From assembly GCA_947172415.1 (NCBI GenBank), contig OX359196.1:4094501-4158500 (forward strand): a stretch of 64,000 nucleotides of DNA, given 5' to 3'. The DNA comes from Chondrosia reniformis. Lineage: Eukaryota; Porifera; Demospongiae; Chondrillida; Chondrillidae. Numbering within the stretch: the stretch's first letter is position 1; each line of letters begins with the position of its first letter. The notes beneath the pieces were generated by a model, which saw only the letters and a list, made by a program, of their open reading frames with translations, did no database searches and was not told the DNA's origin. Shown here one piece after another: positions 24,701 to 57,700 of this stretch. Made by a program: the position numbers and the translations under genes.

Positions 24701-27700
24701 GCTGCAGTGCAAACCATTAAATCCAAAGGACAGACTCACTGTGATTGTTTGCCTGGACGGCGAGACAGTCAGAAGAGTTCCTGCTAATCTTGCTCCAACG
24801 TTTTCTCCATTTCTAGCAAGGGAGTGTAACACCATCACAGCAACCATAACTGATGCTCGAGTCAATTGTGGAGCAGGTTTGGATCTGGAGGTTCCTTGCT
24901 GCTACACACTAACTGGGCCAAAATGTTACGTGCAGCGTGCAAAGGAACTTCTGACCCATTTAAACTAGCCTGCTTGTTGTTTGAGACGTTTCTGGTACTT
25001 TTATTGATTTGCTGGTTCTTTGTGTCCGTTCATAGAGAGAATTTTGTTCACAATATTCGCAATCAGGAACTTTAAAGCGTCCGTTGGACGGTATTGAGAG
25101 TGTCCGCATTTGGGAGATTAAAACGTATTAACGTCATGCACGGGAGAAACCATGACCGCGTGGAGGACGTTGCAAAGCGACTGATCGTTACTGGGAGAGT
25201 CCGTTAATGGAGAGTCCACTGTAGTATAATCCTTTATGTGGCCCCTCTGGGGCCTAGGGTCCTTGCCCCAGGTGTGTCCTCTTGTGTAAGGGTGCAAAGT
25301 ATAGGGTTCAAAGGACATGGGGTGTGGCCCAGGTCCCTTAAGCAGAGGAGGTTGTGGAGTCCCTCTTAATTGGTTTCTTCCTTGAATATTTAGATATTTA
25401 CATCAAGTAAAGTGATGCTACACACAACGGGTCTAACTTGTATTCTTAGCAGCTCCTTCTAAGAGATCCCCAAACACTTTCCAGAAGACTGTCTTGCACT
25501 CTTCAGTGGCGTAGGAGGCTATCAGCTCACCGACTGGTTCCCACAGAGGACTAAAGTTCACATAATACATTCCAAAGAGATAAAGCAAGGGGATCTAAAA
25601 AGGAGATGAGACAAGTGTGAAACAGGAAATACTGTATATACATTTAAGTACGTACGTATGTAATACTTTAATAATATACGTACGTAGTTACATATGGTAC
25701 ATGCATATGCAGATACTGACAATTCACTGAGGTAACTAGCAAAATTAAAGTATATTTTAATGCTAAAATTAGGGGATTGGTGCGTTGAATTACTGCACAC
25801 ATATGCAGTAGTCTCCAGTAAAATTTCATAACAGCAATATTGTGAATAATCATGTGTAATAAAGTGTAAGTTACTGTAGCATCAACTGCTGTCCAGTTAG
25901 AGACATTTACATGTAACGATTATTATGCCCCGCAGGAGGGTCTAGTCCATCACAACTCTAAGTAGAATCACCTCAATCAATAATCAATAATCAACAAACT
26001 CAACATACGTACATACGTATCAAAACAAAGGATATTGTCTTTAATGTGTATACACAATGCACACTTAAAAGTGTACACCTATTATTAACATAATATAAAA
26101 ATAAGTTCTCAGTATATGGTTATCAACTACATATGTACATATGTATGTATGTACTGCACATAGAAACATATTCATTATCTATTCACATCAAATACTGTTT
26201 ATAATAATAGTGAACAAATGCTAGAAAGCAGATATATACGTATATACAGTGAGACCTCACTTAACCGTATACATCCGTTTTATGCAAATATTCGGATAAA
26301 CTGAGGGAATTGGATAAGTGAGGATATATCTAATATGTCTTTATATCGATCTTAATATCCATTTGGTCAGAAATACTCCTGAATGGCATGGTATCATATG
26401 TTGATATAGGGTGTGTTTGTTGTGCAGGCATATTTCTTTCTTATCTTTTCCTGACAGTCCATTCCCTGGCCTTTTTGGTTACAAACAAGCAGCCATTAAT
26501 TCTCTATTTTACTAAAAATAACGCTGGATTATCGAGGAAAAGGTATACGGAAAGTGAACTTTAGTATACAAAACAACGCAACCTGATGCGGACACCTGAT
26601 AAGTGCTGTATAGCAAAACAGCAATGGAACATGCGGACACTGGTTATGAAAATTATGGTCTCACTGTACCTAAATCAGTTTAGCCAAGAAAATTTACAAC
26701 TATTAAAATTAGATTAAAAAATATAACCTACCTACCAAATAGCAAATCTTATCTACAATGACTAACATTTCTAGTAGCCATGTCATTCCTAGTAATGGAC
26801 ATTTAGTTACATATATGTGCAGTTATTAATCAACACTTTCAATACAATAACAAATATAATCGTAAACTGAAGTTGCAGAAAAATGCATCACATACGTAGT
26901 TTAAACCAATTCCCACATAAGTACTGCACATGTACAGCATCATGAAAAAACAGCACAACTTCAACTGTCATTCCAAGAAGGGTCTGGCTGCCCTTTTACC
27001 TGTGATTATCATATTCAGTCTTAGTCTGTGAAGGGCACTGGTCACTCCTAATTCAGTCAACATTTCATCATTCAAACAAACAAAGATCTGTCCATTAACT
27101 TGCTCAGCCAGAAAGGCTCCCTTATAGCTATGTAGGTCTAGGGCTTCTAAGAGGTGCTGCACTGCCATGCAGGAGAGATCTTTCAGGTAGCTCCTGTTTT
27201 CTGCTTCTGTGTATACTCTTTGAGATTCAACACTTTCCTTTTGCCCTGTTGTAGGGAGACAGGGTGGCTGCGGTGACGTCTCAGAGGGACTCTCTGAATA
27301 CACATTACCCATGGATTTCTGGGACTTCAATTTAGGAGGTATCTTAGGGGGAAGGGGTGGGGAACACATGGCAAGAGAAGTTCCTTCAGATGCCTGACAT
27401 GAAGTAATGGAATCCAGCTGTCCTGATGACTTATTCCTAAGTAACTTTTTTCTCAGCTCAGTTATGTTCTCGTAATCAGCTCTGGCCTCACAGTAGATAT
27501 GCTCCATTTCCCTTTTATCCCTGGGTTCCATTACTTCAATGAAGAGATTCAAGCTTACAGGAATTTCTAGAAGAGGCATTTCGATCATTTCCTCAAACTT
27601 TAGAAGTGCTATCAGCACATTTTCACTGTGTACTTCTCTAAGGTGCACATATGGAATACTATCAATATCATCATCATCTGAAACAGGTCGAGCCATCACT

Positions 27701-30700
27701 GGTAACTGAATATATTTCATGAGGTCAGAGGGTGGCAGGGTTACATCTCTCTCAGATGTAGAGAACAGGGCCTGGCAGCTGTTCTTAATCACTACTTCCC
27801 CCAAATTTGAGAGAGCTTTTACAGATCTACGGTCACTGCGTAATACTGAAGCAAGAGCACTTGGTTTAGTTGTATTTAAATACAAAATAGTACCTCCTGG
27901 AATCTTATAACCACTTGCATCATCAAACGGTGATGTTGGGGCTACTGCTGGAGGCAAGCTTTTAGCCTTAAGAAGTTGAGGAGTTGAATATTCACTCTTC
28001 ATGCCTTCTATCATGGGAGCAAACTTTATAAGATCACTATCCTCTGTAACTTTAAAAACCTCATCTGACCCATCAACTCCCGTCAGAACCCTCATTTGTA
28101 CAACATCCACTACTACCAACAATTGGCCTACAGCCAATGTTAGGGTACCTAGAGGGGAGTGATAGTTACCTTTAACTCGAATAATCTTGGGAGTACTAAA
28201 GAGCTTCACAAACTTGGCCAAACTAATAGAGCCTGTCACAGGAACAAAAAGGTCATTGTTATGGCTATGAATATCTGAGAACTCTTGAGGTAAGCTTTTA
28301 CTCATCTCTGCCAAAAGCCCAGACTGAAGTGAATATCTGTAGCAAACAAACTAGTTAACTAGGAACTCATTAGGGAATTTAGTCAAAACCGCCATTCAAA
28401 ATCACCTAATTGAAAATAGGAAACCTTGACAAAGTGACTGTTTACAGTAATACATGGTTAAGGTTAATGTATACTGACATCTCCCACATAAGTAGACCTT
28501 TATAAAAAAAAGACAAGGACAAATAAAAGTGATCATCTTGAAATATTTAATATAATATGCATGTGAGATGTACGTACGTACATATGTACACACATACATA
28601 ATCTTACAATAACATACATAATTCCATTTCCCTGATAAGACATACATATCTCTTTGTGGCTCTTAAGACAATGTAAACAGACTATTAAGTAGTTGCTATA
28701 GAGGAATTCATACTAATATTCTATATACATACATAGAATGTTTAGTTCAGTATATGCAAACATATGCCAAAAAGCCTTATATGGAAAACTGTTAGAACCT
28801 GTGAGCAATATAGTCACTATTGTAATAGTACGATCCTCTGCTGACTAGTATAAAATACATTTTAGCTTATCTACACACATACATACATATGAAAATTGAT
28901 AACAGAAGTGTGATAAATACATTTACTAAGCTAGATAAGACTATAATAAGGCACATCTATACTGAATATAGCTTTGACAATTATAGAATTAGGGTTTCTT
29001 CTAATTGTGTTGAACTTCTTTTGGATGGTTCATCTTTCAACTGAACATCTAAAGACACAGTCTATAAATCCTTTGTTGGATGTTACAACACTGAGGGGGT
29101 TCTTCAGAAATGGGCAGAGTTGCTGTAGAAGACTCATGAGGAACCATCCGAAAGATAGTTTTGTAGAGTTTATAGAATGTGTACAATAAGAAACCAGACT
29201 AACTGAAAGCAAGAATATGACTATTACATAACAACCAATAAAGCATACATATGTACACAGAGTACATATCGAGCACAGTACATAAAATAATAATATTTGT
29301 AGGCATTTTCAGAAAGGAAAGCATCACATACAATGGACATTTAGTTTCAACAAAACATGCCATGTTTGAGCAGCACCTTGCATCAGTTCTAAAATATGTC
29401 TATTAAACCAAACAAACATGCATATACACATGGCACTTGCACCCTTTTGACATTATGCATAAGAATCAGCAATGGCTTAACAAATATTTTTTTGAGTTAA
29501 AAACCCGTGGGGCGCCTGGGTACCCCAAATTCAAACTATTTGCTGATACCATTAATCATTTTAATCACATGGAGTGTTTCATCAATTCTAGTTCATTGTT
29601 TGACTGGTATCAATTTCAAGTACGTATATGTAATAAAACCTTTTGCAAAGTGATATGATGATGCTATGATAGTGAATAGTGATAGTGAATAGTGATAGTG
29701 AATGGCGGCGAAAATGGCGGTTTGATTTCAGTTTAGTGTCAGTTACAATTCAGTTCAGTTTAGTTTCAGTTACAAGTTCAGTTACAAGTTATTTAGTGTC
29801 AGTAGAGTTGTGCAAGCTGATAGATTTCAGTGATGTCCTTTGATCAAATAACATCAGGGGAGCAGGAGGTGCAGTTCAATGGTGAGTCATCAGTAGTGCA
29901 CTAAAGTACTGCGTCGGGAGTCCCGGAACATACTCAGGCTACCACCACCTTATGTGCCCCGTGCCCTGAATGCCAACGATTAATGCCTGTGACCAAGGCT
30001 GGGTTGATACGCATTCACAGTCCCATCAGCAAACGAGCGCAGGTTCTGGTAGGACTCCCTGCATACGCAATTGTACGGCTGAAGCTCCACCCTTACCTTC
30101 GAATCCTGTGCATCATCCCTCAGAAGGCTTCACACCTCCTTTTGTTCACCATTCCAATCGTCATCAGCTGTCATCTAAGATTCTGAAGAGGATCCCCTGG
30201 GCATCCTGGATACATGTAGCCAACAAGCTATCCTCTATCTTAGATTGTAAGGAGGAATGACGACCGTTCCTGGGACCGCCTCTTTAGATTTAGTTCCCGT
30301 TGCCTACGTATTCCCAAGAGGGGGGTCATAGACGGAGTTTAGCAGGGGAAGCTAACTGATTGGTCAGCGATGAAGCAGACCCACCACCTCCTCTTCAACC
30401 TAGCAATTAGCGTCCAAGGGCAGCCCGTGACACTCTTCAGTCCCTTGCTTCCCAGGTTTCATCTAAGCTGGAGGAAGGGGACTACCGAGCAGCTGTATGT
30501 CTTGCCTGCAATGAGGATTCAATAGCCGAATTGAATGAAGGCACACTTGTGGCCTTTCAGTTAAAACATCCATCTCCACACCTTGACTCCTGCATCCCCT
30601 GGAGACCTCCAGGCCTCCGCCACCCCAGTGTCAGTGTCTGAGGAGGAGGTTGCCGCGATCATAACCTCCTTCCTCAATGGATCTGTAGGGGGACCTGATG

Positions 30701-33700: not shown

Positions 33701-36700
33701 ATGCAATGGTTTTAGCACAGAAGCGAGGACTATAGCCAAATATAATACGAGGCTGAGGCTGAGTAAATATATTTTGACAGAAGTCCAGGATGATGGGCTA
33801 TAGCTGATTTATACCATATTGCCACAACATCCAAGTAGCCTGGGATCAAATGGCTAAAAGGGTGAAGGAAGTCATGAAATTTGTTTAAGGGACTAATGAC
33901 AATCGCTGGTAACTTAGAAAACGAATGCTAAAAAATTAATTCACTTCTTATTCACACTGTATAACATATTAATCAATAATTGAATTTCATGCTGTATAAG
34001 GTAGATAGTGCCCCTCCTTATCATCTCGTTGCATGGCAATGGAGTATTAATATATATGTATATATGATACATACGTAACACTTTATTTATACATTTTGCA
34101 AATGGCAGAGGTTAGGATGCTCAAAGCTTTTCTATCATTCTTTATAATTTTAAGCATTAAGAATCATTAAGATTATGACTGAATATAAGTCCAACAAAGT
34201 GGCCAAGTAATTTGAGTGTGGGAAGCGACAGCTCCATGAGTTTTTAACTCTCACAATAAACTTTTGACCTCTGAGCTAAGGCCAGGCTGTTAACTGTGTG
34301 GTGTTTTTAATGACATGTTTAGCAAGGTCTGGGCAACCTTAGCTATCATGTGCCTTAGCTGTATCACCATTTAAGGCATTTTCTTCTTAATGTTAATTTA
34401 TTTTACTTTGTTTTCCCCATATTACACTCATACAAAAAAGTTTATTGTAACAATGACTAGGCTGTGTAGGAACAAAGAGAGAGTACGTATATGCATACAG
34501 TAGCTCTGTATATGTACAACTTTATTATTAGCAGAGGACCACATTAACATCATTCTTCAGACAGCAACCACATACCCTAGTCATTAAATATTGTTACCTA
34601 CATGCCTAGCAAGGTTCACATTCAATCACTTACAGTCTCTTACCTTCTTATTGTATGTTGTAAAATCTACCTGTTAATTTACTTTGTAATCAACTACATA
34701 CTGTATGTACAAATGTTTAATATCAATTCAACTTTATACTATATACAGTCAAAGTGATTGTCATTCCTTCTTATTACTTTGTAACACACTTTCTTCAATC
34801 AGCATTAAGTAAATATTTATTAGTAAAGTTGTTACAATAATGATGGTAATTAAGACACGAGAGGGAAATATGATTAGAAAGAACGTCCGTACGCAATAAA
34901 ATATTAGATTGGATATGAAAATTAAACATTATACGTATATAAACATATATGCACAAAGTATGATCAATTAATAAAATTAAGAGAAATCAAATGAATACAT
35001 TGTCAATCATCAATCATTCTAAATAATATTGTACAATATAATCAAATTATGTGTGTTCTTATTTATTAGGCAATCATTTGTTTACAAAGGATGGGGATGA
35101 GCAATTAAATTCATTAAAGTCACAGACAGATTTTCAAATGTTTTATGTTGCTTTGGAAGCTCCTATGACCTTTAGATCTTTGATAGTATTTTTTGATAAG
35201 CATCTTTGGATTGGGAAGTATTTATAGCAATGATAAGCAACAATTAGAAACAACTGCATAATCAGCAAGAGTATTGATACATTGCTGTTAAAGTACTTAA
35301 CTGTTGGACCCTGCAAGTCCACTACAGCAAATGGTGTAAGTATTATATTAAAGAGGAACAGAGGGTCCAAATTGTTAGGGTGTAGAAAGTTCTGAAATGC
35401 AAGTAAAAACTTTGCTTTACAAGATGTTTCATTTTCACTATCATTTTCATTTGGAGTTGTGTGTAGTTGAAACGGCTTCAAGATTAATTCAATTACAAAA
35501 ATTAGACAAATACTATAAAAGAGAATATGTGTGAAAGTATTGGTTGATGTAGAAATTCTCACAATAGAAAAAAAAATTCTTACTAACAATCTTAATCCAA
35601 GCCAAAACCCAAGTTTCCTTCTGAATGCTCCATAGAATACATCAAGAAAGTGACTAAACCAAAGCTTCCTGGTGTATCGTCTGAGTATATCACCAAAGAG
35701 TAAAATAAATGTAAGAGGAAAGAGATAAAAGAGTGTGAATGCTAATGAGAGAATTACTAAAACAAGATGCTTTCCTTGAAAGTATGGTATGTCTCCTTGT
35801 TGAAGCCAAACAGTTGTAGTCTCACCGTTGGTTGAGTAGATGGTGGAAAATCTTAGAGGAATAATGACAGCTCCTGCAATATTGCTGTATGTCAACAACA
35901 TCATGGTAGCTAACACAGGAACAGCTCTCTTAGCAATAAAAGGCACACGAAAGATCTTCCAGTTATATTTGTGTGCACCAATGATAATGACTAGCAATAT
36001 AACAAAGAGGTAAGTTGGGAAAACAAATTGAAGGATTGCCTTAGTAAACTCATCCATGCCATCAAAGAAGCACAGTTCAAAGCCAACTCCAAAGTTTAGC
36101 CAGGACAGGATTGCGTATAGAAATGGTCCTCCATATTGCTCAAAATAGTCACTGTACAAATATGTGATGTTTGCATAGAAACTGACACCAAGAATGGTTC
36201 CTTGCAAAACAGTCAAATTAAGAAGAAACAGAATCACCACTAACAACAAGCCAACAAATCCCAAGATAATAGCTAGCAAATACCATGGACCCTGGCACTT
36301 TCGACAAGCAGAGCTCCCGAAAGTGGTACTGTACCCTTTTGGGCAACTACCACAAAGTTTGCCAACCCTACCATTGCTACACTGCACTTCAGATTGTTGA
36401 TTTGAGGATTCAAGAGTAATGCCTTTCTCAAAAAGGATGTCGTTACAATAAACGGTGAGACAATAATCACTGTAAAGTACCGTTTCCTTGTCAATTTGGA
36501 TCCAGTAATGGGGCAGGTGAGCTTGATAATGTACACCAAAGTTGGTAATTGTACATTTGATGTAGTTTGACAAATGTGGCATGCAGATGCAATGTTTGCT
36601 TGTTTGATTATAGCCATATTTAGACAATGAGAATCCTGGTGGACAAGCAGAAACATTTACCATTACCAGATGTATAATATTGTATTTGTCATAGATTTGT

Positions 36701-39700
36701 TCTGCCTCAAGTTCAACTTGATAATCATTAGTTAATGAATTATTTGATAGCATGGGTATTTCCACTGCAGAACATGCACCTGTCACAAAGTTAAAGTTAG
36801 CTGCTTGGCTTCCTTTAATACTACTTCTCAAATGATATTGCAAATTTATTCCTAAGTCACCAAGTATGCTTACATATAGAAGGAGTTTCTGCCCAGGATA
36901 ATGACTTACTTTACTTCTATCACTGCAATTCCATCTGTGTTGAACAAACCTATTTTGGCTGTTTTGTGGACATAAGCAAATATGATATGGCGGAGATGAA
37001 ATATCTCCTTTCCAGTGTTCAATATCAATAAATGTCTTCAATAGTGGTAAATCTGCATTTATCAAGCCTTCTGTAGTTAGCAAACTACAGTTAAAAAGAT
37101 GTCCATTAAATATTTCTGGTTTTGTATTTTTATGAAGATATATTTTGGCTTTGATGCTTAGTAAATCCTTCTTAGATAAGAATTCCTTGTTACTACTTAG
37201 CAATTGAAAGATACAGAAACCGCTGCAATTCTGTTTTTTAACATAACAATTAATAAAGTGAATAAATGTACTTTGCTTTGGTTCTGATACAAAAATTCCC
37301 TTGTATTCATTGTTTGAAATATTTAGAATTGAGTTATTCAGAAGAGCTATTTGAGAATCAACCGATAGTTGGAATACACTTGAGTGCCTAAAATGTTTGA
37401 GGGACTTCAGGTTATCAATAATTTCATTATATCCTCCTATTAATAGTTTTGTACTTTGGAGTACTGCTACATTGGCTATGTTATTGTGAATTTTGTTTCC
37501 ACCACTAAAGAAAACTGGAAAGACATTAAATCCAGACAAATACATCAAAACAAAAGGATCCACTTTTCTTCTTCTGCAAAGGATTTGTTGCATTTTCTGA
37601 TTACAGCTAATGGTACAATTTTTGATTTCCCAAATAGGATTGTTGGACTTACACATAGTGTTTTGATGGAGAAAGTTTCCAATAATTATATATTCAGCCT
37701 TACTTTTTTCAATAATTGTATCTTGAATTAAAAGTAAAGGTCCAGTAGTCATATTGGAATTTACAGTAAAGTCTGAATAGTTGGCAGATAGCTGCACATT
37801 GAGTACAGATATCTTATAAGCCGGCCTAGAGTAAGAACAATATTCCTTATCCAAAGGCTCTAAGCTGTAGAAGTGGCATTGAAGTATCCTTACGTAAACT
37901 TGAGGAGAATGGTTTAAATTTGAATACCATTGGTCTTGATTTAGTGACACTTGAAAATATACATATATGATGTGTTTCATGAAAACTTTAGGACCGCTGA
38001 TATTATATTCAAAAGCACATCTATCAAAGGTTACCTGCAAAAACTGAAGTGGTCCATAGTGATTTGGTGATCTCAAATAAAAGGCTTTATTAAAGAAATG
38101 TCCTCTTTGGATTGCAATATCTATCTTAGAGTATGACGGAACATCTTCTATTACTGCGTATAATCCTGCTTGTACACCACTTGGTATTATTTTACAATCA
38201 GTTAGAAGAACAAAGATATTTAAGAAGAAATCAATTCCAAATGATGTAAAGTGAAAATGTACCTCAGAGAAGGTACAATATTTTGCAACTAATTCATTTA
38301 TAGGATTTAGGTAATGCATTTTAATATGTTCTGTTGCATTAACATGATAAAGCAGCAGATTAGAAATATAAGTGAAAAGTAACTCTGACAATTCAGAAGA
38401 AAATAATTGTAAATTCTGAATTCTTAAATGTCCCACTAAATATATTACTGAGATACTACCATTTGGTAGAATAAGTGTGCATTGGTTTGCAAAACATTCA
38501 TCTTCACCTCTAAGAGTGACATTCTCAACAAATTCTAAATTCAAAGGAAATGGCATCACATGCTGACCTTTGAGAAATATCCAAGTAACATTGGACCTGT
38601 TCAAAGTAATATCTTCTTCCTTGTAGCCTTCTAGAGTGTTGCATGGCCATTTGTCTTTGCACCGATCTAGGGAGGTACTCACCCAATATATTTCCACTTT
38701 ATCGGTTTCAGAAGAAGCAATAACAAAGCTGATATTCAGAACTGCTATTAGAATAGCAGCTACAGTTGACATGGGTAACATTCTAATCTTACATGAATTG
38801 AGATCTTAGAATCCAGCCAGCTAAATTCAACTTTCTAACTATTTCTCCTGTACATATACTATATTAATTGAGGCTGTAGAAACTGAATCTTTATAAATTA
38901 TATACAGTATTAACTATATAGATAATTCAATAGGCATTTCAAATTTAAATCAAAGGAGGAATAAACATGTTTTGCTGAAATAAGCCTCAAATTCAAGATA
39001 TGTAGCCTATTATGGTATTCATTAATAAACGTATGTATACGTTATGCCCTATTCATGGTTTTCGACAAGTTTCAAATTAAATGATATGTACGTACATAAT
39101 TAAAGCATGAATAGGTGCAAATAATGCATGAAACTGTAAATATCTTAGACTTGCTCCTTCCACTGCCAGCCACCTAAGATTTAGCTAAGATGATAACCAA
39201 AATACTCAATCCTCTAGTGGGTAAATCCTGTCATTGTGTCCAAAACTCCACCCATTTTGTCTAGCTACTCCATAGCTTCGATTTACAACCTAATGACATG
39301 ATGGTCAGTTTTGATGTAGTTAGCCGCTTCACCAAGGTTCCAGTTGCAGAGGCCGTCGACATCATATCAGGCCGTCTCCACAAAGATTACAGCCTTGAAG
39401 AGAGAACTGATCTGACACCAAACATCATCATTGACCTGCTGAAGTAGTGCTTAACAACCACTTATTTCCAGTATCAAGACAAATTTTACCAGCAGACAGA
39501 AGGTGCAGCAATGGGTTCACCCCTCTCCCCTCTCATTGCCAACATCTATATGGAGTTCTTTGAAGAACTAGCTATTGAGACTGCCAAGGACAAATCATCG
39601 CTCTGGCTCGTTACGTAGATGACACATTCGTTGTATGGAGACATGGAGAGGAGAACCTAGGAAACTTCTTCAGCCACCTCAACTCCATCAGAAGCACCAT

Positions 39701-42700
39701 CCAATTAACAGTAGAGAAAGAAGAGCAAGGACAGTTGCCTTTCCTGGATGTTTTAGTCAGAAAAGATACCTTGAGCCAACAGTTTCATTTCAGTGTCTTC
39801 AGGAAACCGACGCACACTGATAGATACAAATCCAATCACCACCCTGCTACCAAGATTGCCACCATCCTTTGCCTAAGAAAAAGAGCCGAAGACATTTGCC
39901 AAGGAGAAGATCTAAAGAAAGAACTCAACCACATTGAAGATGCCTTCATTACCAATGGCTATCCCAGAGGACTTGTGAAGAGGACTTTACACAAAAGGAA
40001 AGGCAACAGACAACCAGAGGAGGAAACAGATGAACAAGAGAGGATACTGTGCCTACCTTACATCAAAGGCATCAGTGAAAATCTCCATAGGACCTGCAGA
40101 CCCCTCAAAGTCAGGATAGTACACAAGGCTCCCACCACTTTGCATTCCCTACTGACCAGGTTAAGCCACCAACCCCCAAGGACCAGGTGACTGGAGTCAT
40201 TTACCAGATCCCCTGTGAGTGTGGAGACAACTACATTGGGGAAACCTCAAAGAACTTAAATGAAAGGCTGAAGGAACACCAATGGGCTATAAGAAGAATG
40301 GACAACAACAACTCTGTTGCTGTACATGTGAGAGACACTGGACACAACATCTCATGGGAAAATGCTAAAATAATGCTGAAAGAAGAAAACAAGATGAGAA
40401 GAAAGATGAAAGAGGCAATCAAGATCAAGACCATCCCCTGTTTCAATATGGACCAAGAAATCTATTTGGATCCTATCAGGAATGACTTTATTTAATTAAC
40501 ACTTGTAATTCATTTTTATCCTCATTAAATATTCAGCACACTTTTTTCATTACATCATTTTTCACACCTGCCAACCAACTTCTATTTAAACACCAACCTT
40601 TCCTCACTTTTTCATATTGCTGATGAAGAACTGCGGGTTGAAATGTCTATTCCAAAGATTTAATGTTGCTGTTGCTCAATAAACTTCATATATCATCATG
40701 ATCACGACAAATAAACCCTATCACTTCATATATTAATGAATACCATAAAAGGCTATGTACATATCTTGAATTTGAGGCTCATTTCAACAAAACATGTTTA
40801 TTCTTCCTTTGATTTAAAATCTGAAATACCTATTATTCATGCTTTAATTAATAATATAAAATGCCTATTGAAATAATGGTATAAAGATATTTACAGTTTC
40901 ATGCATTATTTGCACCTATTCATGCTTTAATTATGTATGTACATATCATTTAATTTGAAACTTGTCGAAAACCATGAATAGGGCATAACGTATACATACG
41001 TTTATTAATGAATACCATAATAGGCTACATATCTTGAATTTGAGGCTTATTTCAGCAAAACATGTTTATTCCTCCTTTGATTTAAATTTGAAATGCCTAT
41101 TGAATTATCTATATAGTTAATACTGTATATAATTTATAAAGATTCAGTTTCTACAGCCTCAATTAATATAGTATATGTACAGGAGAAATAGTTAGAAAGT
41201 TGAATTTAGCTGGCTGGATTCTAAGATCTCAATTCATGTAAGATTAGAATGTTACCCATGTCAACTGTAGCTGCTATTCTAATAGCAGTTCTGAATATCA
41301 GCTTTGTTATTGCTTCTTCTGAAACCGATAAAGTGGAAATATATTGGGTGAGTACCTCCCTAGATCGGTGCAAAGACAAATGGCCATGCAACACTCTAGA
41401 AGGCTACAAGGAAGAAGATATTACTTTGAACAGGTCCAATGTTACTTGGATATTTCTCAAAGGTCAGCATGTGATGCCATTTCCTTTGAATTTAGAATTT
41501 GTTGAGAATGTCACTCTTAGAGGTGAAGATGAATGTTTTGCAAACCAATGCACACTTATTCTACCGAAAAAATGTTTTTCAGAATTACATCTAATTAGTG
41601 ATGTTAAGATGATTAATATATATATAAAAACACTCAAAAGAATGAGAATTAACATTTACTTTGCTAAAGGATTCTGGCTTGAAAATGTAACTTTCTCACC
41701 AAATATCACATTACACTTCGTAAATCCTTTGGATATATTTCATGCTAAATACTGCAATTTTTCACAACTTACTTTTGAGTTTAAAGCCAAAAAGACAAAT
41801 GAACAACCACATATTTTTGTGATTATATCAGATTGTACTTTTGTTCCAAAACAGAGTATCGATGTAGGTTTAAGAGTGTCAATACATGAAGACATAGACA
41901 GAAACATAACTGTGATAACTAAAAACAGCTACTTTTATAATCAAGCATTTGGATTTTTTGGTGAATGTTATGGTCTTTTACATACAATCTCAATTGTATT
42001 CGACCAATGTACGTTTGAATATCATATCAGAACTCTTTCCAGGCAGCTCAGTAGAATTGTACAGATCATTTTGGAGCCTGTGCAGAATACAGTCATATCT
42101 AAAGTCCAAATAGTTGTGAATATGAAAAATTGTCAGTTTCAAAATGTAAGACCATTAGAGCCCCAGTATATAGTTGACTTAAGGACTGTAGAAGGAGTTT
42201 CTATTATATACGTACAAGTAAACAACACTAGAGAAGATCAGAGATTAGGCATTAATTCAGAGATGCTTGATGGTCCAATTATTCAAATTCAGGACACAGT
42301 ATTTGAGAATACACAGGCTCATCATATATTTAGAGGAAATATTCTTCAGAATGGTTTAGAAAACACTCATGATCAGTCCGTAACATATAATCCTATTTGG
42401 GAAATTGTAAATTGCACTTTCAGATACAACCATGGCATGACTCATTTACATTTTTCTTTGATGCTCCTGGAAAACTTCAATCAATATCCAATGCAGTTTA
42501 GCAATGGTAACAGTGTTACTCAAAATGTACCATGTGAATTGCAATTAGTAAATACAAAGCTCCTTATTAAAGGATACAATGAAATCTTGGACAACAATAT
42601 TGGAAAAGTTTCAGAAATGAATTGCATTGAACTTGACAAATCTTCTAAGATTGTACTCTTCAATAATTCTGTTTTGAATATTTCTAGAAATTTAAATAGG

Positions 42701-45700
42701 GGTATCACTGTACTAACTCAATCAATTAGTAACTTTGCTGATTTTGTGCGTTGCTATGTCAAAAAAGTAAATTGCAGTGGTTCATGTATCTTTCAATTAT
42801 TAAGTAGCAATGGCAGACTCTTGTCAAGGAAGGAGTTAATAAACATCAAAGCTACCATATCTCTTAATGGAAATATAAAACCAGAAATATATAATGGACA
42901 TCTTCTAAACTGTAGTTTGCTAACTACTGAAGGATATATTTATGCAGATGTATCATTGTTGAAGAAGGTTATTCATGTAGTAGACTGGGAAGATGCTATT
43001 TCATCTCCCCCATATCATATATGTCTGTGTCGTCACAACCAACAGATAAAAATAAACCAATGGAACTGTAATGAAAAAAGCCAAGCCATTCAGTATCCTG
43101 GACAGAAACTCCTTTTGTATGTAAGTATAGTTGGAGATCTAGGACACATTTTAAAACAGAAAGTGAACATTGCAGTAAAAGGAAGTGAGTCATCCAACGT
43201 AACATTTATTACTGGTTCCTGCACTAAATTAGAAGGTTTTGATACACCAAATAATGAAATTGATAGCTATCAGGTAGAGCTTAGTGCAGAAGAAAAAGGA
43301 ATATTTCAAACTTATAAAATAAGGCATCTGGTAATGGTAAATGTTTCTGCTTGTCCACCAGGATTCTCATTGTCTAAATATGGCTATAATCAAACAAGCA
43401 AACATTGCATCTGCATGCCACATTTGTCAAACTACATCAAATGTACAATTACCAACTTTGGTGTACATTATCAAGCTCACCTGCCCCATTACTGGATCCA
43501 AATTGACAAGGAAACGGTACTTTACAGTGATTATTGTCTCACCGTTTATTGTAACGACATCCTTTTTGAGAAAGGCATTACTCTTGAATCCTCAAATCAA
43601 CAATCTGAAGTGCAGTGTAGCAATGGTAGGGTTGGCAAACTTTGTGGTAGTTGCCCAAAGGGGTACAGTACCACTTTCGGGAGCTCTGCTTGTCGAAAGT
43701 GCCAGGGTCCATGGTATTTGCTAGCTATTATCTTGGGATTTGTTGGCTTGTTGTTAGTGGTGATTCTGTTTCTTCTTAATTTGACTGTTTTGCAAGGAAC
43801 CATTCTTGGTGTCAGTTTCTATGCAAACATCACATATTTGTACAGTGACTATTTTGAGCAATATGGAGGACCATTTCTATACGCAATCCTGTCCTGGCTA
43901 AACTTTGGAGTTGGCTTTGAACTGTGCTTCTTTGATGGCATGGATGAGTTTACTAAGGCAATCCTTCAATTTGTTTTCCCAACTTACCTCTTTGTTATAT
44001 TGCTAGTCATTATCATTGGTGCACACAAATATAACTGGAAGATCTTTCGTGTGCCTTTTATTGCTAAGAGAGCTGTTCCTGTGTTAGCTACCATGATGTT
44101 GTTGACATACAGCAATATTGCAGGAGCTGTCATTATTCCTCTAAGATTTTCCACCATCTACTCAACCAACGGTGAGACTACAACTGTTTGGCTTCAACAA
44201 GGAGACATACCATACTTTCAAGGAAAGCATCTTGTTTTAGTAATTCTCTCATTAGCATTCACACTCTTTTATCTCTTTCCTCTTACATTTATTTTACTCT
44301 TTGGTGATATACTCAGACGATACACCAGGAAGCTTTGGTTTAGTCACTTTCTTGATGTATTCTATGGAGCATTTAAGAAGGGGTTTGGCTTTTGGCTTGG
44401 AGTTAGATTACTTTTGAGAATTATTATACTAATTTTGAAAATAAAGACATCAATGAATGCTTTCACCAACATAATATTTCACATTTTAAGTATCTGCATG
44501 GCATTTGAGTTAATTGCAAAGCCATTTATAGTTCACAAAAGATGTGATTACTGTCAAAAGAACAAATCCCCCCTAGTTTTACGTCTAAGAAAAGGTTTTC
44601 ACACACAAATACATCCCAACATGATGGATCCACTATTGCTGTTTACTGCTATTGTATTTACTTATGCAGCTCTTCAGGATGGAAAAATGTTATTACGTAA
44701 TTTTAATACCAAATTTAGCTTTCTAGTGTATTTGTCACTTGTATTACTTCTATTGCTTTTTCATGGGTGTAAATACTTTCCACTACCTACAATCATTTCT
44801 CAAAAGTCACGTGCCTTTGGAAGTGCATTGCAGAAGAGATTTTTTCAAAAGAAAATCCAAGAACAGCCTCATGTAGGGATTAATGTAGCTTTAGCAGATG
44901 CTTTGGCAGAGTTCCCCTTCTATGAAGTGACTCATTTGCAATTGTTACAAGAGAGTGATCAGGAAGAAGAAACATTTTCCTCAGAAAATACTGATTATTT
45001 TACAAGTAGTACTGCTTCTAATTATTGAACTATTGATTGACTAACATTATGCATTAAATAGTGGATATAACACACATAACAAGTTTATTCAGCTATGCAT
45101 ACCTAAAAAGTGTGCATACAATATATGCCGAGTTGCTGACATTATATCTATGTACTATGCATGATGATTTATATTTTTTGATTGATGGTGGCAGGAGTGC
45201 ATTTTATGGTGTCCACCTATTACAGTGCAGTTACTAAAATTTGCAATATTTAATATTTAACTCGATTGTAATTGCCCCAGCAGTCAGAGCATTTTGTAAT
45301 TTACACTGTGTAATACTTGATTGTAGTTGTAGTAGTAGTACATACGTATATGTACATACACGTATGTGTACGTACGTAGTTGTATAGTTGTGGTTAAAAT
45401 GTAATAAATTTTCCTCCAAACTCCGTGCAATGCCTCATAGTTACACGCTATCAGTAGCCATTAGGTAGGCAGGAGTAGTCATGGAATCGTGAAATTTAAA
45501 AGTATGGTATTATAAAAGAATCCAACAAAGTGCTCTTGTTCTACGAAGATAAACCGATATCGTACTTGAAAATAACACTCCAATTCTTTGTGAAGCCATC
45601 ATAAGTAGGACATGCATCCTAGTGAATATACTAAAGGCTGGGGCTCTTGTACACACATACACACTAGGACATGAAAGGATGAAGTCTTGATGTATACATA

Positions 45701-51700: not shown

Positions 51701-54700
51701 GCCATCATCTGAGAGTACAACAGATCATTCCCATGCAGCTTCTCTTACAACGCAAGTAGTGGAGGCGTCAAACAGAGTTGAGAAACCAGAGGCCTTTTGG
51801 GGCATGAAGCAACTCTACCACTGCCAGATGATGTGAAAAGAAGTACAGTAAAGCCTTACGACTGAATGGATGGATCAATTCAAAAGAATATTTGCATTTT
51901 GCTTTTATTACTGGATTCGTAAACTCTCGAATATTTTTGATTTTTTTTGTCATAGAACTTGCATACTTTACCTTGCTTAGATGGTTCCTTCTTTGATATA
52001 CTAATAGTGGCAATGGAGAAGAACCAAAGGAGAGCAGTAGTACTCCCATGGAATCTAACAGTGAGTCTAAACCAGAAACCAGAAACCAGAAAATACAATT
52101 GCCTCAGTCTATTTCCAACTGTATAAACACTGGCCCAAATAAGTGGGAGAACAAACAATATTTCCTTACTACAGTCAACATTTTAATAGTCATTGGAGTG
52201 TTATCCAAAAGGAGTGTGGAAATATGAGTGGAAGGGAAGTGATAAGTACTTGATTGTGCAAGGTCAGGTGTACTGAATATTTTATCCCTAAAAATTTGAA
52301 AAGATTATTGCTCTTCGCTAGATACAGGTTCTCCAAAAAAATGGAACACATTTTTAAGAGGCTCTGGATATTAAATGTATGTATATATTACAATTGTACT
52401 GACCCGTGTCTTATCTGTGAAGAAAGGGGAGACAAGACACCACAGAGATCATATGGTCTGACCAAGACACACATCTAATGGTTAACTGCAGAGCATTGTT
52501 CAAGATCAACAGAGAAAATGCAGCACAGATCCTTTTGGTAGCTTTACATGTGTTCAATATGTTATATACGTACTTGCTATGTATATGCGAACTGTCTTTC
52601 TCTTTGTTGACCATTTCTTATTTTTAATTAAAGGTTTGATGATTCGATGTGCCAAAAAGAAGTATACAATGCACATGCAAATATGTAACGTACTGTAGAT
52701 GCAAATGGGTGTCCAATCCCCATTGACAAATCTCTACCTGTGGCTGGACAAGTTCTACCCAGCTATACCAGGCCATGAAAATGAAGCCTTGTATCCCTGA
52801 TCCTCTAAGAGTTTTAATAGCTGTGTAGCTGTGGTTTCGTCATCTTCTCCCATGCCATCTTCTATAAGTGTTCCTATATGACTCCAGTTAATTTGAATGG
52901 CCTTCCAGATCCCGGGAGACAACAAATAGTACCATGTGCCTTATATTTTTGAATTGCTTTCCAAACTGTCTTAAACCCCAATTCCCAATTGTTCTCTAAT
53001 TGCCGAGCAGCGAGCGTGAGCAAGCGAAGCGAGGCTAATGAACGGGTTCTATTCGAGATTTTCGTATGTATATATATATACGTACGTATATACGTACAGT
53101 ACAAGTTACAATAATACTAAGGTAATCTAATCTAATCTAATCTAATCTAATCTAATATAATATAATATAATATAATATAAATAAATAAATTATATAAATA
53201 ATAAAATAATTCATATGGCTCCAAGAAAGGACCTAGAAACAAAGTGTACAGGGCTAATTATTAGGTTTCAATGATTTTGAAACTCACCTGAAAGCAGTGA
53301 AACCTTAAATAGTCTTGAAACTCGAAATCGTAAGTTTCAAACGATTTGAAACTGTAAAGAACTCTTTTCAAATGCCGTATTTGCTTGTGAAACTTTTAAA
53401 AGTGATTGCACAATTTGAATTCAAACGAAAATGGACGTCCTTGAAGCGCTTGGAGCTATTAAGTTACTATGACAAGACATCTGCATACGTATGCGGCATT
53501 ACAGGCTGTAATCTTCGCTTACTGTCACGAGGAAAAGTTGCATTCTGATGTGTTACGGTTAAAGTGACTTTTCATACAATTCTAGACAGGTAAGTTTTCA
53601 ATAATTAAGTTAATCAGTAAACTACCATACATAGTAGGGTTTAGACATATAGTTTGCAAATAATAATGACCATGGAACACATGTCATCAGAAGAATCTGA
53701 TGTAGAAGATGGCAACCACAGCTTCAAAGTCAGATGTCTTCCATGGCTAAAAAAGAAATATGTGAAAGCATTAAAGAGCATTGATGATGTGGCCTTCAGC
53801 AAGATGACAACAACTTCTAGAAAGCGAAGACTTCCAAGAAAGCCAGGAGCTGCTAGTTTCAGACCAACCTATTGAGAATGTACCAAAATGGTGTATAAAG
53901 GAATTCGAACTAATCCTATTGCAACATCAACGCCTAATAGTAGCTCTAGATTTGAGGAGGATGAAATTGATAACATAAGCAGTCTAATTTAGTAAGGATT
54001 GAACTCATTAGTTGTCATATACATTTATCTTCACTTTACATTTATCTTACACAGAGTTACCAGCACTACCTCAGGAGAATGGGCTACAACCTTTAGCCGT
54101 TACAGAGCGGGATGTGGCCCAAGCTATTAGATCCTTTCCCAAGGGTAGCATCTGAAGGACTTGATCAGCAACACTGTGGGCTTTGGGGGGAAGAAATTGC
54201 AAACAGCACTCACTTCCTTCACCAACCTTGTGCTATCTGGGAATACACCTACACAAGTACGGCCCCCTTTTTTGGAGCATCCCTGACAGCATTGAACAAG
54301 AAGGATGGCGGTGTGCGGCCCATCGCTGTTGGCTGTACTCTTCGACGCCTGGTGGCAAAAGTGGCAAGTAGAGCTGTCTTGGATCAGATTGGTTCTTTAC
54401 TAGCACCACTCCAAATAGGTTTTCCATGGAACATCTATGGGAGCAGAAGCGGCTGCCCACTCCACTAGGGCCTACCTCAACCTCCTCCCCACTGACCATG
54501 TCCTCCTCAAGCTCGATTTCAGAAACGCCTTCAACAGCGTTAGAAGGGATAAAATGTTGGAGGCGGTGAAGGAGACCATACCGGAGCTCTATGCCTTTGT
54601 CTTCTCCTGTTACTCCTCGCCATCTACCCTTCTCTTCCACAAGACTACCCTGCAATCTGCAGAGGGAGTCCAGCAGGGCGACCCGCTGGGACCCCTCCTT

Positions 54701-57700
54701 TTTTGCCTGACCATCAACCCCCTCATTGCAAACTTGAAATCGGAATTCAGGGTTTTCTACCTTGATGATGGCACAGTTGGTGGAGCCGAGGGAGAGGCTC
54801 TACAAGACCTTCAGTACATTGAATGCTCACTTGGGTCTACACCTCAACCGTGCCAAGACAGAGCTTATTTGGGAGGACTCGGCAGGTAGCCTCTTGCTGC
54901 AAGTAGCCCCAGTACCAGGCCTGTGTAAGGTAAAGCCTGAAGATACCTTCCTACTTGGTTCCCCCATTGGTCAGTTGACATCAATCAATTTGGCCATCTC
55001 TAGCCGCTTACATGCCCTGAAGACCATGGGATCCACTGGATTCTCCCAGACAGAGTAACAGAGGCTCCTCCCCCCCTCCTCCATGTGGTCTGCAATGAGT
55101 GGAAGCGCAGACACCAGCAACCACCACCCTCCACCCAAATGAAGCAAAAGCAGAAAGCCTGGGACAAACCTCACATAGAAGCAACGCAGCAGGAGCTTTT
55201 GAACTCGGCGACAGACCCCAGGGCACAAGCCAGACTTCTGGCAGCTCAGTGTAGGGAGTCTGGAGCGTGGTGAATGCACTGCCGTTGCCATCCCTGGGGC
55301 TTCGTGTGGATGACGAAGTCGTGCGCATTGCTGTTGGTCTCCGCCTCGGAGTGCCCCTCTGCCATCCCCACCTATGTAGACAATGCGGAGGGAGTATGGA
55401 TGAACTTGCCACACATGGCCTCAGTTGCAGGATGAGTGCAGGGCGCCTTTCACGACATACAGCAATTAATGCCATTGTCAAGACATCCCTGGCCAGAGCA
55501 CAGATCCAATCCTTGCTTGAGCCCCTCGGCCTCAGCCGGCTGGATGGTAAGCATCCAGATGGTGTCACTGTCACTCCTTGGGACGTCACCTGCCCGGAAA
55601 CCTACGCAGCCTCCCACGTGGCAGTGGCAACGAGGGAGGCAGGGGCAGTAGCTACCACAGCTGAGATGAAGAAGACCATCAAATATGTAGAGCTGGCTAG
55701 GACCCACCATGTGGCCCCTCTGGCAGTCAAGACATCTGGTGTGTTTGGCCAGGGGGCCTGCGATTTTCTCACAGAATTGGGCAGACGCCTGATCTGGGTC
55801 ACTGGAGATCCACTCTCCCGAAGCTACTTGACACAACAAATTTCAGTGGCCATGCAAAGAGGCAATGCTGCCTCTGTGCTGGGCACCTTTGAACAATGTA
55901 CCGTTAATGACAATTAATCTTATTATATTTATATTTTGTTTATTTAATTTATTGACAGTTTGGTTTGTTTTTCTTTCAGTTTTGTAATTACAATTTTAGG
56001 CTTCAATGACTTTTCTGCCCTTAAATTTACTTGAAATCTTACATTTCAATGACATTTCCCGTCCTTTTGATAGCATGAAACCTCTCTCAGAATAAGTTTC
56101 AATGGTTTTTCCAAATCTTGAAACTCAAAAACTGGGCGCATTATAAATTTGAAACTTATACTCCATGAAACCTGGCGTATCAAGGGGTATGAAGTTATTT
56201 CGCCCTGGGATGGGCATAGTATCATAAAGTTTAGGGTATAAAACTCATTATATATATATTTCCGTACCTTGTGCAAGTTTTCGCTTCAATTGCATAAAAA
56301 AACATTCTATTCAAGATTTGACAATTGTGTAAGCCAATTCGATCTAGCAGCTGAAGACAATTGCGTAAGCCAAGTCAATTGATTTTCCATTGTCCATTGT
56401 TCCGGTGTTTGTTCATCTAATATCTTGCTCATCACTTCTTGCTTTACTTGCCTTAATAAGGTTTCTGCATGGTTAAGAAGCGAGGCATGTGTTTGCGTAT
56501 TGCGTATGCCTAGTATACTTGAAAAACACCTTCGATCTTAATTGCCGAGCGGCGAGCGTGAGCAAGCGAAGTGAGGCCAATGAACGCGTTCTATTTGAGA
56601 TTTTCCTATTGATATATATATATATATGTGTTCGCACCTTGCGCAAGCTACATTCTAAGACAGTCAATCAGATAAATAATATATCCCTTGCAACACAGAT
56701 CACATCTAATGTTACCATTGGTAAAGTACATGGTCATACACACCTTTCTAAGTAAGAATGCAAAGCTCTCTGTAGCAAACTGTCGAATATGAGCACGTTG
56801 ATGGGATCCCAGAAGAGACCTGTACAGCCTAAAGAAAAATACAACACCCTACTATATACGTACTATATACATATGTAGTACATGTACACACTCAGTAAGC
56901 TAAACATAGTGAAAAATTCTAAACAATTTTGATTTATCTTTGCAAAGGTTCATCTTTCGACTTTGGGAGCGTCTAGAAGATAATTTCGACGCAGTTAGAA
57001 GAAACCCTTAATTTTGATTTATATTGGTTACAAAATTAGAACTACTGTACCAGCATACACAATTAGCACCAAGATCTGTGGTAAATTGGTAATTATAATG
57101 ATATATTTTGCAATTGCTTCAAATCTGCAAAGCAATTGTTCCATTATTAAATGTATGCATGTATAATAATATTAATCTTGATGCCTACCCAAATACTTCC
57201 TCAATGTCTCTGATCATTGACCTCCACATGTACTTGATCATGTATGCCAAACAAGTGAATATTTGCTGCACAAGTGATCAATAAGTACACATAGCACATA
57301 CAGCCCTTGTTATCAAGAATTTCTTTTGTGAGTCCTTGTGTATCTCACTTATGGCTCTGGAGCTCCATAGAAACATGTATTGTGACACAATAAATTAGAC
57401 TTAGATTAAAAAGAAGATAAAGATTCCCAGGGTCACTGATGAAGGGTGGAATTCCCAGAAACAGCTGTCTGGCCAATGGAGAAGTAGAAGGAGAAAACTC
57501 TTGTATCCTCATCCAAAGCTCTCACTAGACTTAGTTCCCTATAGGCCTTTACTCTAAAGTACGTAGATGTAGCATGTTCAATAATGGTTTGGTAAATTAT
57601 TCATGCAATATTCAGATTGGTATAGGGTATGTTGAGGAGGAAAGAGTACATTTATATACTTAACACGTAGATTATAGTGATATCTTTAACTGTATACAAT

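Follow-up and report, generated by a model that had tools for sequence, protein, structure and literature searches.

Probable patchy gene conversion between two inverted sister genes and repeated homogenisation of the frame in a large receptor-like membrane-protein family of the sponge Chondrosia reniformis

That receptor paralogues can be converted region by region is already known from TLR1/TLR6, the fugu protocadherins and EMR2. In mammals, TLR1 and TLR6 underwent regional gene conversion with nearly fixed boundaries in nine species (PMC2077338), and the same source describes EMR2 together with its oppositely orientated neighbours CD97 and EMR3. The clustered protocadherins of fugu combine a 3′ part that is >99% identical with a diverged 5′ ectodomain part, and their GC content at third codon positions (GC3) is raised (PMC1852091). 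In the Saccharomyces flip/flop region, inverted paralogues are almost identical by continual homogenisation, and an inversion of 24 kb is reported (PMC9731477). The present study concerns two intronless, receptor-like genes, A and B, that lie head-to-head in a 64,000-nucleotide stretch (hereafter, the window) of the genome of Chondrosia reniformis (assembly GCA_947172415.1, contig OX359196.1). Window position x corresponds to chromosome 8 position 4,094,500 + x. The genome searched comprises 117,379,552 bases in 15 contigs, the window being on contig 8, and the material is one primary haplotype of one individual of one species. In the genome searches only the best candidates were scored, so that all counts are lower bounds and absences have no proof value.

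Genes A and B are very probably old sister paralogues that have undergone recent, patchy gene conversion, in a family whose common frame was homogenised repeatedly and which may form a modular repertoire. The frame consists of the N-terminal end with its 5′ flank and the membrane core, represented in A and B by blocks 1 and 2 below, and its conversion between the two genes is well supported. The same overwriting is repeated among other paralogues, mostly on the same chromosome, and favours the N-terminal end and the membrane core. Furthermore, conversion and exchanges near codons ~1042-1077 have combined similar ectodomains with dissimilar tails, and dissimilar ectodomains with similar tails. 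The features of the pair are the following.

35143..38781, minus strand: gene A, an intronless open reading frame (ORF) of 1212 aa with signal peptide, large ectodomain, Cys-rich stalk, ~9 transmembrane (TM) segments and a short end without the FPF motif (ORF, hydropathy, Cys and sequon counts, tail comparison).
35143..35623, minus strand: C-terminal module of A, diverged; TM6-TM9 and a very short cytoplasmic end; 51.1% nucleotide mismatch to B over codons 1043-1230.
35624..36672, minus strand: block 2, copy A; ectodomain end, Cys-rich stalk and TM1-TM5; 1,049 bp, differing from copy B at one site.
36673..38464, minus strand: ectodomain middle of A, diverged; 43.6% nucleotide mismatch to B over codons 107-692.
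38465..39146, minus strand: block 1, copy A; codons 1-105 and the 365 bp of 5′ flank before them; 682 bp, differing from copy B at one site (A/B alignment).
40884..41565, plus strand: block 1, copy B (A/B alignment, genome DNA search).
41249..45028, plus strand: gene B, an intronless ORF of 1259 aa with A-like architecture and the family-type cytoplasmic tail, FPF followed by an acidic/Ser-rich part (ORF, hydropathy, tail comparison).
41566..43324, plus strand: ectodomain middle of B, diverged (same A/B comparison).
43325..44373, plus strand: block 2, copy B, codons 693-1042 (A/B alignment, hydropathy).
44374..45028, plus strand: C-terminal module of B, diverged; last TM helices and a long cytoplasmic tail.

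Each gene is one single open frame, and the pair spans 9.9 kb, with 1,737 bp between the arms and 2,467 bp between the two start codons. The single mismatch of block 1 sits in the 5′ flank, and that of block 2 is at a third codon position and silent. In contrast, 751 of 1722 nucleotides are mismatched over codons 107-692, as are 239 of 468 over codons 1043-1230. The transitions are abrupt at all four tract edges, where mismatches per 20-bp step change from 14 to 0, 0 to 10, 10 to 0 and 0 to 9. The proportion of silent differences (pS) follows the same pattern: it is 0-0.04 in 40-codon bins wholly inside the tracts and 0.32-0.84, with many bins saturated, in those wholly outside (a range that omits the last bin of 5 codons, at 0.88). 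The corresponding silent-identity segment covers codons 693-1041, where 337 of 338 silent comparisons match. By hydropathy, the TM segments of B after the signal peptide start at ~824, 876, 905, 945, 995, 1045, 1071 and 1156; A has a B-like set with one more at 1138 and a weak hydrophobic stretch at 176-203 in the ectodomain. Block 2 thus holds the Cys-rich stalk and TM1-TM5. The initial annotation of this stretch, made from the letters alone, is borne out in its two intronless, outward-facing genes (both ORFs stand at the coordinates it gave, 1212 aa on the minus and 1259 aa on the plus strand), in the near-identity of 682 bp and 1,049 bp down to silent sites, in the sharp boundaries of the block-wise profile, and in the strong divergence of the ectodomain middle and the C-terminal part. 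The name it gave the latter needs amendment, because this 'C-terminal tail' includes the last three or four TM helices besides the cytoplasmic end.

The diverged parts are homologous between A and B rather than unrelated. A genome DNA search with the ectodomain middle of A returns B as its sole other match (75% over ~400 bp), the search with the middle of B returns only A, and the two ectodomains are sisters in the module trees with 100% support. The tails are likewise sisters (98%), and protein identity to B does not exceed 40% in its next relatives in the genome. Taken together, these results point to divergence in place with conversion of the frame, and not to import of a cassette. The DNA search with block 1 finds the two copies and one partial 104-bp match adjoining them.

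The pair belongs to a large family. A genome search with the stalk-TM-tail part of B gives at least 77 stretches that match, 76 of the 93 candidates having been scored; by hand count, 49 of these stretches lie in stop-free frames of at least 1,000 aa. Fifty whole-genome loci were numbered (L001-L050), and the 37 with an ORF of at least 600 aa were aligned and used; L001-L008, being duplicates or partial DNA matches, were excluded, as were L039-L043, which have no ORF of that length. L012, L024, L031, L034, L038, L047 and L048 are incomplete or broken. Subsets served the silent-conservation profile (21 of the 37) and the module trees (20 of the 37), and 17 chosen close pairs served the ratio of nonsynonymous to synonymous divergence (dN/dS). 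Broken-frame relatives of B, probably pseudogenes, occur on chromosome 8 at 1.866-1.959 Mb and 1.519 Mb, on chromosome 14 at 2.106 Mb and on chromosome 5 at 1.387-1.397 Mb.

The test for segments of silent identity used silent sites alone and permuted each pair 300 times. Pairs with a silent identity of at most 0.75 were taken as divergent; they number 628 of 666, and A/B and five L017 pairs are among the other 38. At p ≤ 1/301, 46 of the 628 contain a segment, against an expectation of ~2. These segments are located at codons 23-66, 759-960, 980-1061, 1168-1186 and 1230-1255, and none of the 46 pairs has one overlapping ectodomain codons 106-690, a region that makes up 28% of the comparable codons. 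Pairs on the same chromosome account for 36 of these 46, compared with 121 of the 628 (label shuffle, p = 0.0002). The number of separate conversion events behind these pairs may be guessed at about eight. The mean silent difference over the 628 pairs is 0.63-0.80 in every bin and remains 0.63-0.79 in the membrane core, which indicates that conservation alone does not yield silent identity there. At the codon level, silent identity relative to the per-amino-acid expectation peaks in the 12-codon windows that start at 1029-1044, 1003-1012, 907-915 and 50-61, the top window reaching 0.67 against 0.41 expected. Furthermore, trees of the three modules (ectodomain, core and tail) are mutually incompatible under the approximately unbiased test (p ≤ 1.5e-4).

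Single cases illustrate how the modules vary. Between L017 (chromosome 5, minus strand) and L019 (plus strand, ~100 kb away), mismatch is 10.1% over codons 1-66 and 39.8% in the ectodomain, and it falls to 2.4% over codons 789-1055 and 4.4% over codons 1060-1225. Their similarity starts at about codon 789 and stops before the stop codon, with no downstream flank match listed, and 423 of 438 silent comparisons match over codons 789-1255. A narrower island is seen in L036/L044 (45.4% in the ectodomain, 1.6% over codons 980-1061, 42.6% in the tail), and two appear in L021/L027 (ectodomain 55.6%, tail 54.5%, codons 29-66 5.8%, codons 1005-1050 3.5%). The latter two disagree with the remainder of the gene: within them L021 resembles L027 more than it does its close relative L020, both over codons 29-66 (7 vs 17 mismatches in 120 nucleotides) and over codons 1005-1050 (5 vs 14 in 141), but over codons 106-690 it differs from L027 at 822 of 1479 positions and from L020 at only 237 of 1686. 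Constraint alone would not give such a conflict. In L013/L016, mismatch reaches 14.4% over codons 106-450 but is 1.2% over codons 25-105 and 3.2% over codons 481-1230.

The tail module varies on its own, as L011/L019 (ectodomain 10.3%, core 4.7%, codons 1060-1225 36.0%, end 4.0%), L012/L014 (39.6% over codons 1077-1160, flanks 1.7% and 4.2%) and similar cases demonstrate. Its near edge lies at about codon 1042-1077 in A/B, in a chromosome 5 cluster, in L020/L021 and in L012/L014. This cluster, at 1.373-1.431 Mb, is a tandem array of five intact genes (L011, L022, L018, L030 and L019) that share nearly one ectodomain throughout, and its tail type switches once, between the first two genes and the next three.

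Base composition agrees with this picture. A GC3 test for conversion is described in PMC1852091. In A/B, GC3 is 0.38 in the core and 0.26 in the ectodomain; over the 37 ORFs the difference is modest, at 0.354 and 0.302 (standard deviations 0.038 and 0.030), and the tail part of the family is also raised (0.352). The higher value in the core is the direction expected of repeated conversion. Collectively, silent-site identity and abrupt edges on old sister paralogues, recurrence across the family and conflict among the trees argue for conversion of the frame.

Several points weigh against this reading. For A and B alone, one patchy event would suffice; accordingly, of the 'recurrent gene conversion of the frame' proposed in the initial annotation, conversion is upheld by the silent identity and the edges, and recurrence holds through the family only, one event per tract being enough for this pair. 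At the strictest level 582 of the 628 divergent pairs have no segment, the 628 pairs are not independent of one another, and the regions differ in amino-acid composition, for which the silent-identity profile of 21 of the 37 sequences controls in part. In L020/L021, pS over codons 721-900 is 0.43-0.62, higher than in most of their ectodomain (0.08-0.44 in bins 91-690), which reverses the usual pattern of a similar core and a dissimilar ectodomain. Young pairs such as L025/L028, L021/L023 and L048/L050 and the L035 group are without mosaic over the compared length, the broken end of L047 being the sole departure. Ectodomains without tracts may only reflect too little homology for conversion to start, and a donor may have been missed, as the genome searches score best candidates only. 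Gene A does not carry the tail motif of most of its relatives and may be decaying rather than specialised. The recognition-receptor role, the ligand-facing part and the signalling tail are themselves putative, read from the architecture. Finally, positive selection was sought at the domain level, and in the 17 close pairs pooled ectodomain dN/dS stays below 1 (0.66 and 0.59, with 0.54 for the N-terminus, 0.44 for the stalk, 0.36 for the TM core, 0.47 for the tail and 0.59 for the end). Single pairs reach up to ~1.1 in the ectodomain, and L037/L045 have a dN of 0.017 and no silent change over codons 106-500. The 'diversification' of the ligand-facing part that had been suggested earlier is thus not demonstrated as positive selection: the ectodomain exceeds the TM core, which reflects weaker constraint in the parts beyond the core and falls short of proving positive selection.

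One alternative gives inversion an active role. The inverted TM1-TM5 cores could act as a receptor switch that flips 36673-43324 and joins either ectodomain to B's signalling tail or to the end of A, which has no tail; the 5′ blocks would equalise expression, and the family would form a germline, or even somatic, combinatorial repertoire. We regard this scenario as unlikely; if true, it would mean a combinatorial ectodomain-tail repertoire in an animal without adaptive immunity. A related version, which we judge unlikely and which is compatible with frame conversion between old sisters, holds that crossing-over between the inverted block 2 copies flips the segment and swaps the ectodomain-tail pairing, conversion being a by-product by which the arms stay identical. 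The geometry permits it, since the near-identical inverted arms measure 682 and 1,049 bp, and homogenised inverted paralogues drive recurrent inversion in Saccharomyces (PMC9731477). However, the second orientation is not seen in the one primary assembly, and both edges of the long L017 tract lie inside the gene, as in non-crossover conversion.

It is very unlikely that a recent inverted duplication was followed by import, into one copy, of a foreign ectodomain and tail from other family members. Such a history would leave the same four edges, and tails have been swapped elsewhere, as the two tail types on nearly one ectodomain in the chromosome 5 cluster attest. Yet no donor was found among the best candidates scored, the ectodomain searches with A and B returning only each other, and the sister relation of both ectodomains and both tails means that every part would call for its own donor, since lost or overlooked. 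Two known arrangements were also considered and rejected. Paired activating and inhibitory receptors of the PILR or CD300 type have homogenised ectodomains and different tails; although the tails of A and B differ and A is without FPF, their ectodomains differ at 43.6% of nucleotides. Donor-array conversion of the immunoglobulin or VSG type draws on silent donor copies of the variable part, and no other ectodomain DNA match was found in the genome among the best candidates.

An assembly artefact, in which copies of one gene or two haplotypes were mis-joined, is extremely unlikely. PMC12181767 gives a k-mer completeness of 69.43% for the primary assembly, from which the sample may be highly heterozygous; it also gives a reported quality value (QV) of 69.8 and 10.31 Gb of HiFi data in 0.80 million reads, that is, a mean of ~12.9 kb. 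The mean read therefore exceeds the 9.9-kb pair, and the window is gapless, without any N. Moreover, the copies differ at single sites and stand between different sequences, and mosaics recur at other loci. Pure constraint, by which selection on protein and DNA keeps the frame identical, is effectively refuted: the core is indeed the most conserved protein region (mean nonsynonymous difference, pN, 0.15-0.50 in bins 691-1050 vs 0.42-0.64 in bins 91-690), but in A/B the silent sites and the 365 bp of noncoding 5′ flank each show just one difference, the same core is highly silent-diverged across the 628 pairs, and the islands disagree with the remainder of the gene.

On this reading, conversion of the frame between old sisters operates as follows. 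A and B are old, inverted, head-to-head members of a large membrane-protein family whose proteins have a signal peptide, a probably beta-helical ectodomain, a stalk rich in Cys and about nine TM segments. The 5′ flank with the N-terminus and the stalk-TM1-5 core became identical through two recent ectopic tracts, and the ectodomain middle and TM6-9/tail module, being unconverted, have kept their old divergence. The conversion is most likely non-reciprocal, mostly within one chromosome, and seeded where protein conservation keeps the DNA alike, namely at the N-terminal motif and the membrane core; between A and B it is very recent and took place between inverted neighbours whose starts are 2.5 kb apart. 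The homogenised frame may serve shared needs such as expression, export, folding and a common membrane machine, with the ectodomain providing ligand specificity and the tail the output, so that conversion would keep a modular recognition or sensing repertoire compatible.

As regards protein anatomy, B has 17 and A 19 N-glycosylation sequons before residue 840, together with many Cys residues. Pfam returns for both solely a sub-threshold DUF7630 in the stalk, and no beta-helix model was scored in either. A protein search with B finds 581 proteins at E ≤ 0.001. Its public relatives include Cys-rich, multi-TM proteins of PMP/beta-helix type, and among the 120 matches listed several distant ones, unlike A and B themselves, carry Beta_helix or Chlam_PMP repeats; the beta-helix score lies below the cut-off in P0006 and above it in P0067. 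The ectodomain is therefore likely to be beta-helical, judging from these relatives. Conserved cores with diverged ectodomains are also seen in the public proteins (43 of the 120 listed, 45 pairs chosen for contrast), but such block profiles, being protein data only, cannot separate conversion from constraint. No relative of B was found in prokaryotic genome contigs, and sequence searches of the PDB (single and profile) gave nothing meaningful, with one chance-level match at E 0.66.

The cytoplasmic FPF-like motif, sought by a loose pattern, is present in 33 of the 37 ORFs and missing in A, L047, L048 and L050, of which L048 and L050 carry a variant. From the YFP landmark to the end, A has 25 residues, compared with 54-111 in the 35 other ORFs where the landmark was found, and no FPF motif was seen downstream of gene A in three frames. 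By its sequence, A is the tail-less and B the tailed member of the pair. The end of gene A (window 35143-35300) and L047 are both examples of tail-less members next to tailed ones.

The spacer between the two arms contains two further features.

39150..40730, plus strand: spacer repeat, multi-copy and retroelement-like, with a GIY-YIG domain and broken frames (genome search, Pfam).
40731..40834, plus strand: extra flank copy of 104 bp, 89% identical to part of the 5′ flank (41003-41101) and adjoining the spacer repeat (self-comparison).

The repeat, which takes up most of the spacer, has 68 genome matches from 40 scored of 546 first-look candidates, several at 93-95%. Its GIY-YIG domain is found by Pfam at 2.6e-5, and the other spacer piece run against Pfam has no match. 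Penelope-like elements combine a reverse transcriptase with a GIY-YIG endonuclease, and by this definition the repeat is probably a broken element of that kind. Several of its genome copies adjoin their own fragments in opposite orientation. Without the repeat, the starts of A and B would be <0.9 kb apart, which makes a shared bidirectional promoter region plausible. A sigma-70 scan of the spacer gave 10 sites vs 9.1 expected and has no meaning for an animal.

Elsewhere in the window, positions 26968-28305 (minus strand) hold a 445-aa ORF with a SAM domain at its C-terminus, and 12747-13895 (minus strand) a 382-aa ORF with a sulfotransferase domain. A reverse-transcriptase fragment (Pfam RVT_1) at 54437-54889 represents retroelement remains. 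Self-comparison reveals palindromes and one short direct repeat at 58490-58683, 14335-14433, 59705-59920 and 60036-60240, the palindromes matching their reverse complements at 97%, 90% and 74%.

The receptors of self/non-self recognition in sponges are, to our knowledge, largely an open matter. According to PMC5450542, sponges distinguish self from non-self with remarkable specificity. Here, a large receptor-like sponge family has its membrane core and start overwritten repeatedly, and its ectodomains and tails vary and reassort. This gives concrete candidate loci with fixed junctions for typing by PCR and long reads, and the prediction is that alleles or individuals differ in the pairing of ectodomain and tail, not in the core.

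A literature search, judged by titles and the starts of abstracts, found no description of this sponge family or its layout. To this extent the initial annotation was right that no described family has this layout; the process, however, has precedents in TLR1/TLR6, the fugu protocadherins and EMR2/CD97/EMR3. The features of regional conversion found in A/B and the family are a silent-identity tract on old paralogues, tree conflict and raised GC3. TLRs have one TM segment. As far as the sources cited at the outset describe these systems, A/B and TLR1/TLR6 are alike in being linked receptor paralogues with a membrane-centred region homogenised at the DNA level, a diverged ligand-binding N-terminal part and a free extreme C-terminus; unlike the tandem TLR genes with their leucine-rich repeats and TIR domain, A/B are inverted, have about nine TM segments, include the 5′ flank and N-terminus in the conversion, and belong to many paralogues in one species. 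EMR2, CD97 and EMR3 are likewise adjacent, oppositely orientated multi-TM receptor genes, in which ectodomain and seven-TM part were converted separately. EMR2 is a chimera of two partners, whereas A and B are sisters that share a core with the last TM helices and tail outside it. The fugu protocadherins are similarly a cell-surface family with one part homogenised, a diverged ectodomain and raised GC3 in the converted part, but they are tandem, with cadherin repeats and variable exons; here whole intronless genes are involved, the N-terminus is homogenised and the tail is variable. The Saccharomyces flip/flop region shares the inverted paralogues kept near-identical; there inversion is demonstrated, whereas here it is no more than a possibility, with arms that are internal to receptor genes. 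New in comparison are the family itself, a second module in the form of the variable TM6-9/tail, and the inverted arrangement of the genes, in which an inversion could exchange ectodomains and tails.

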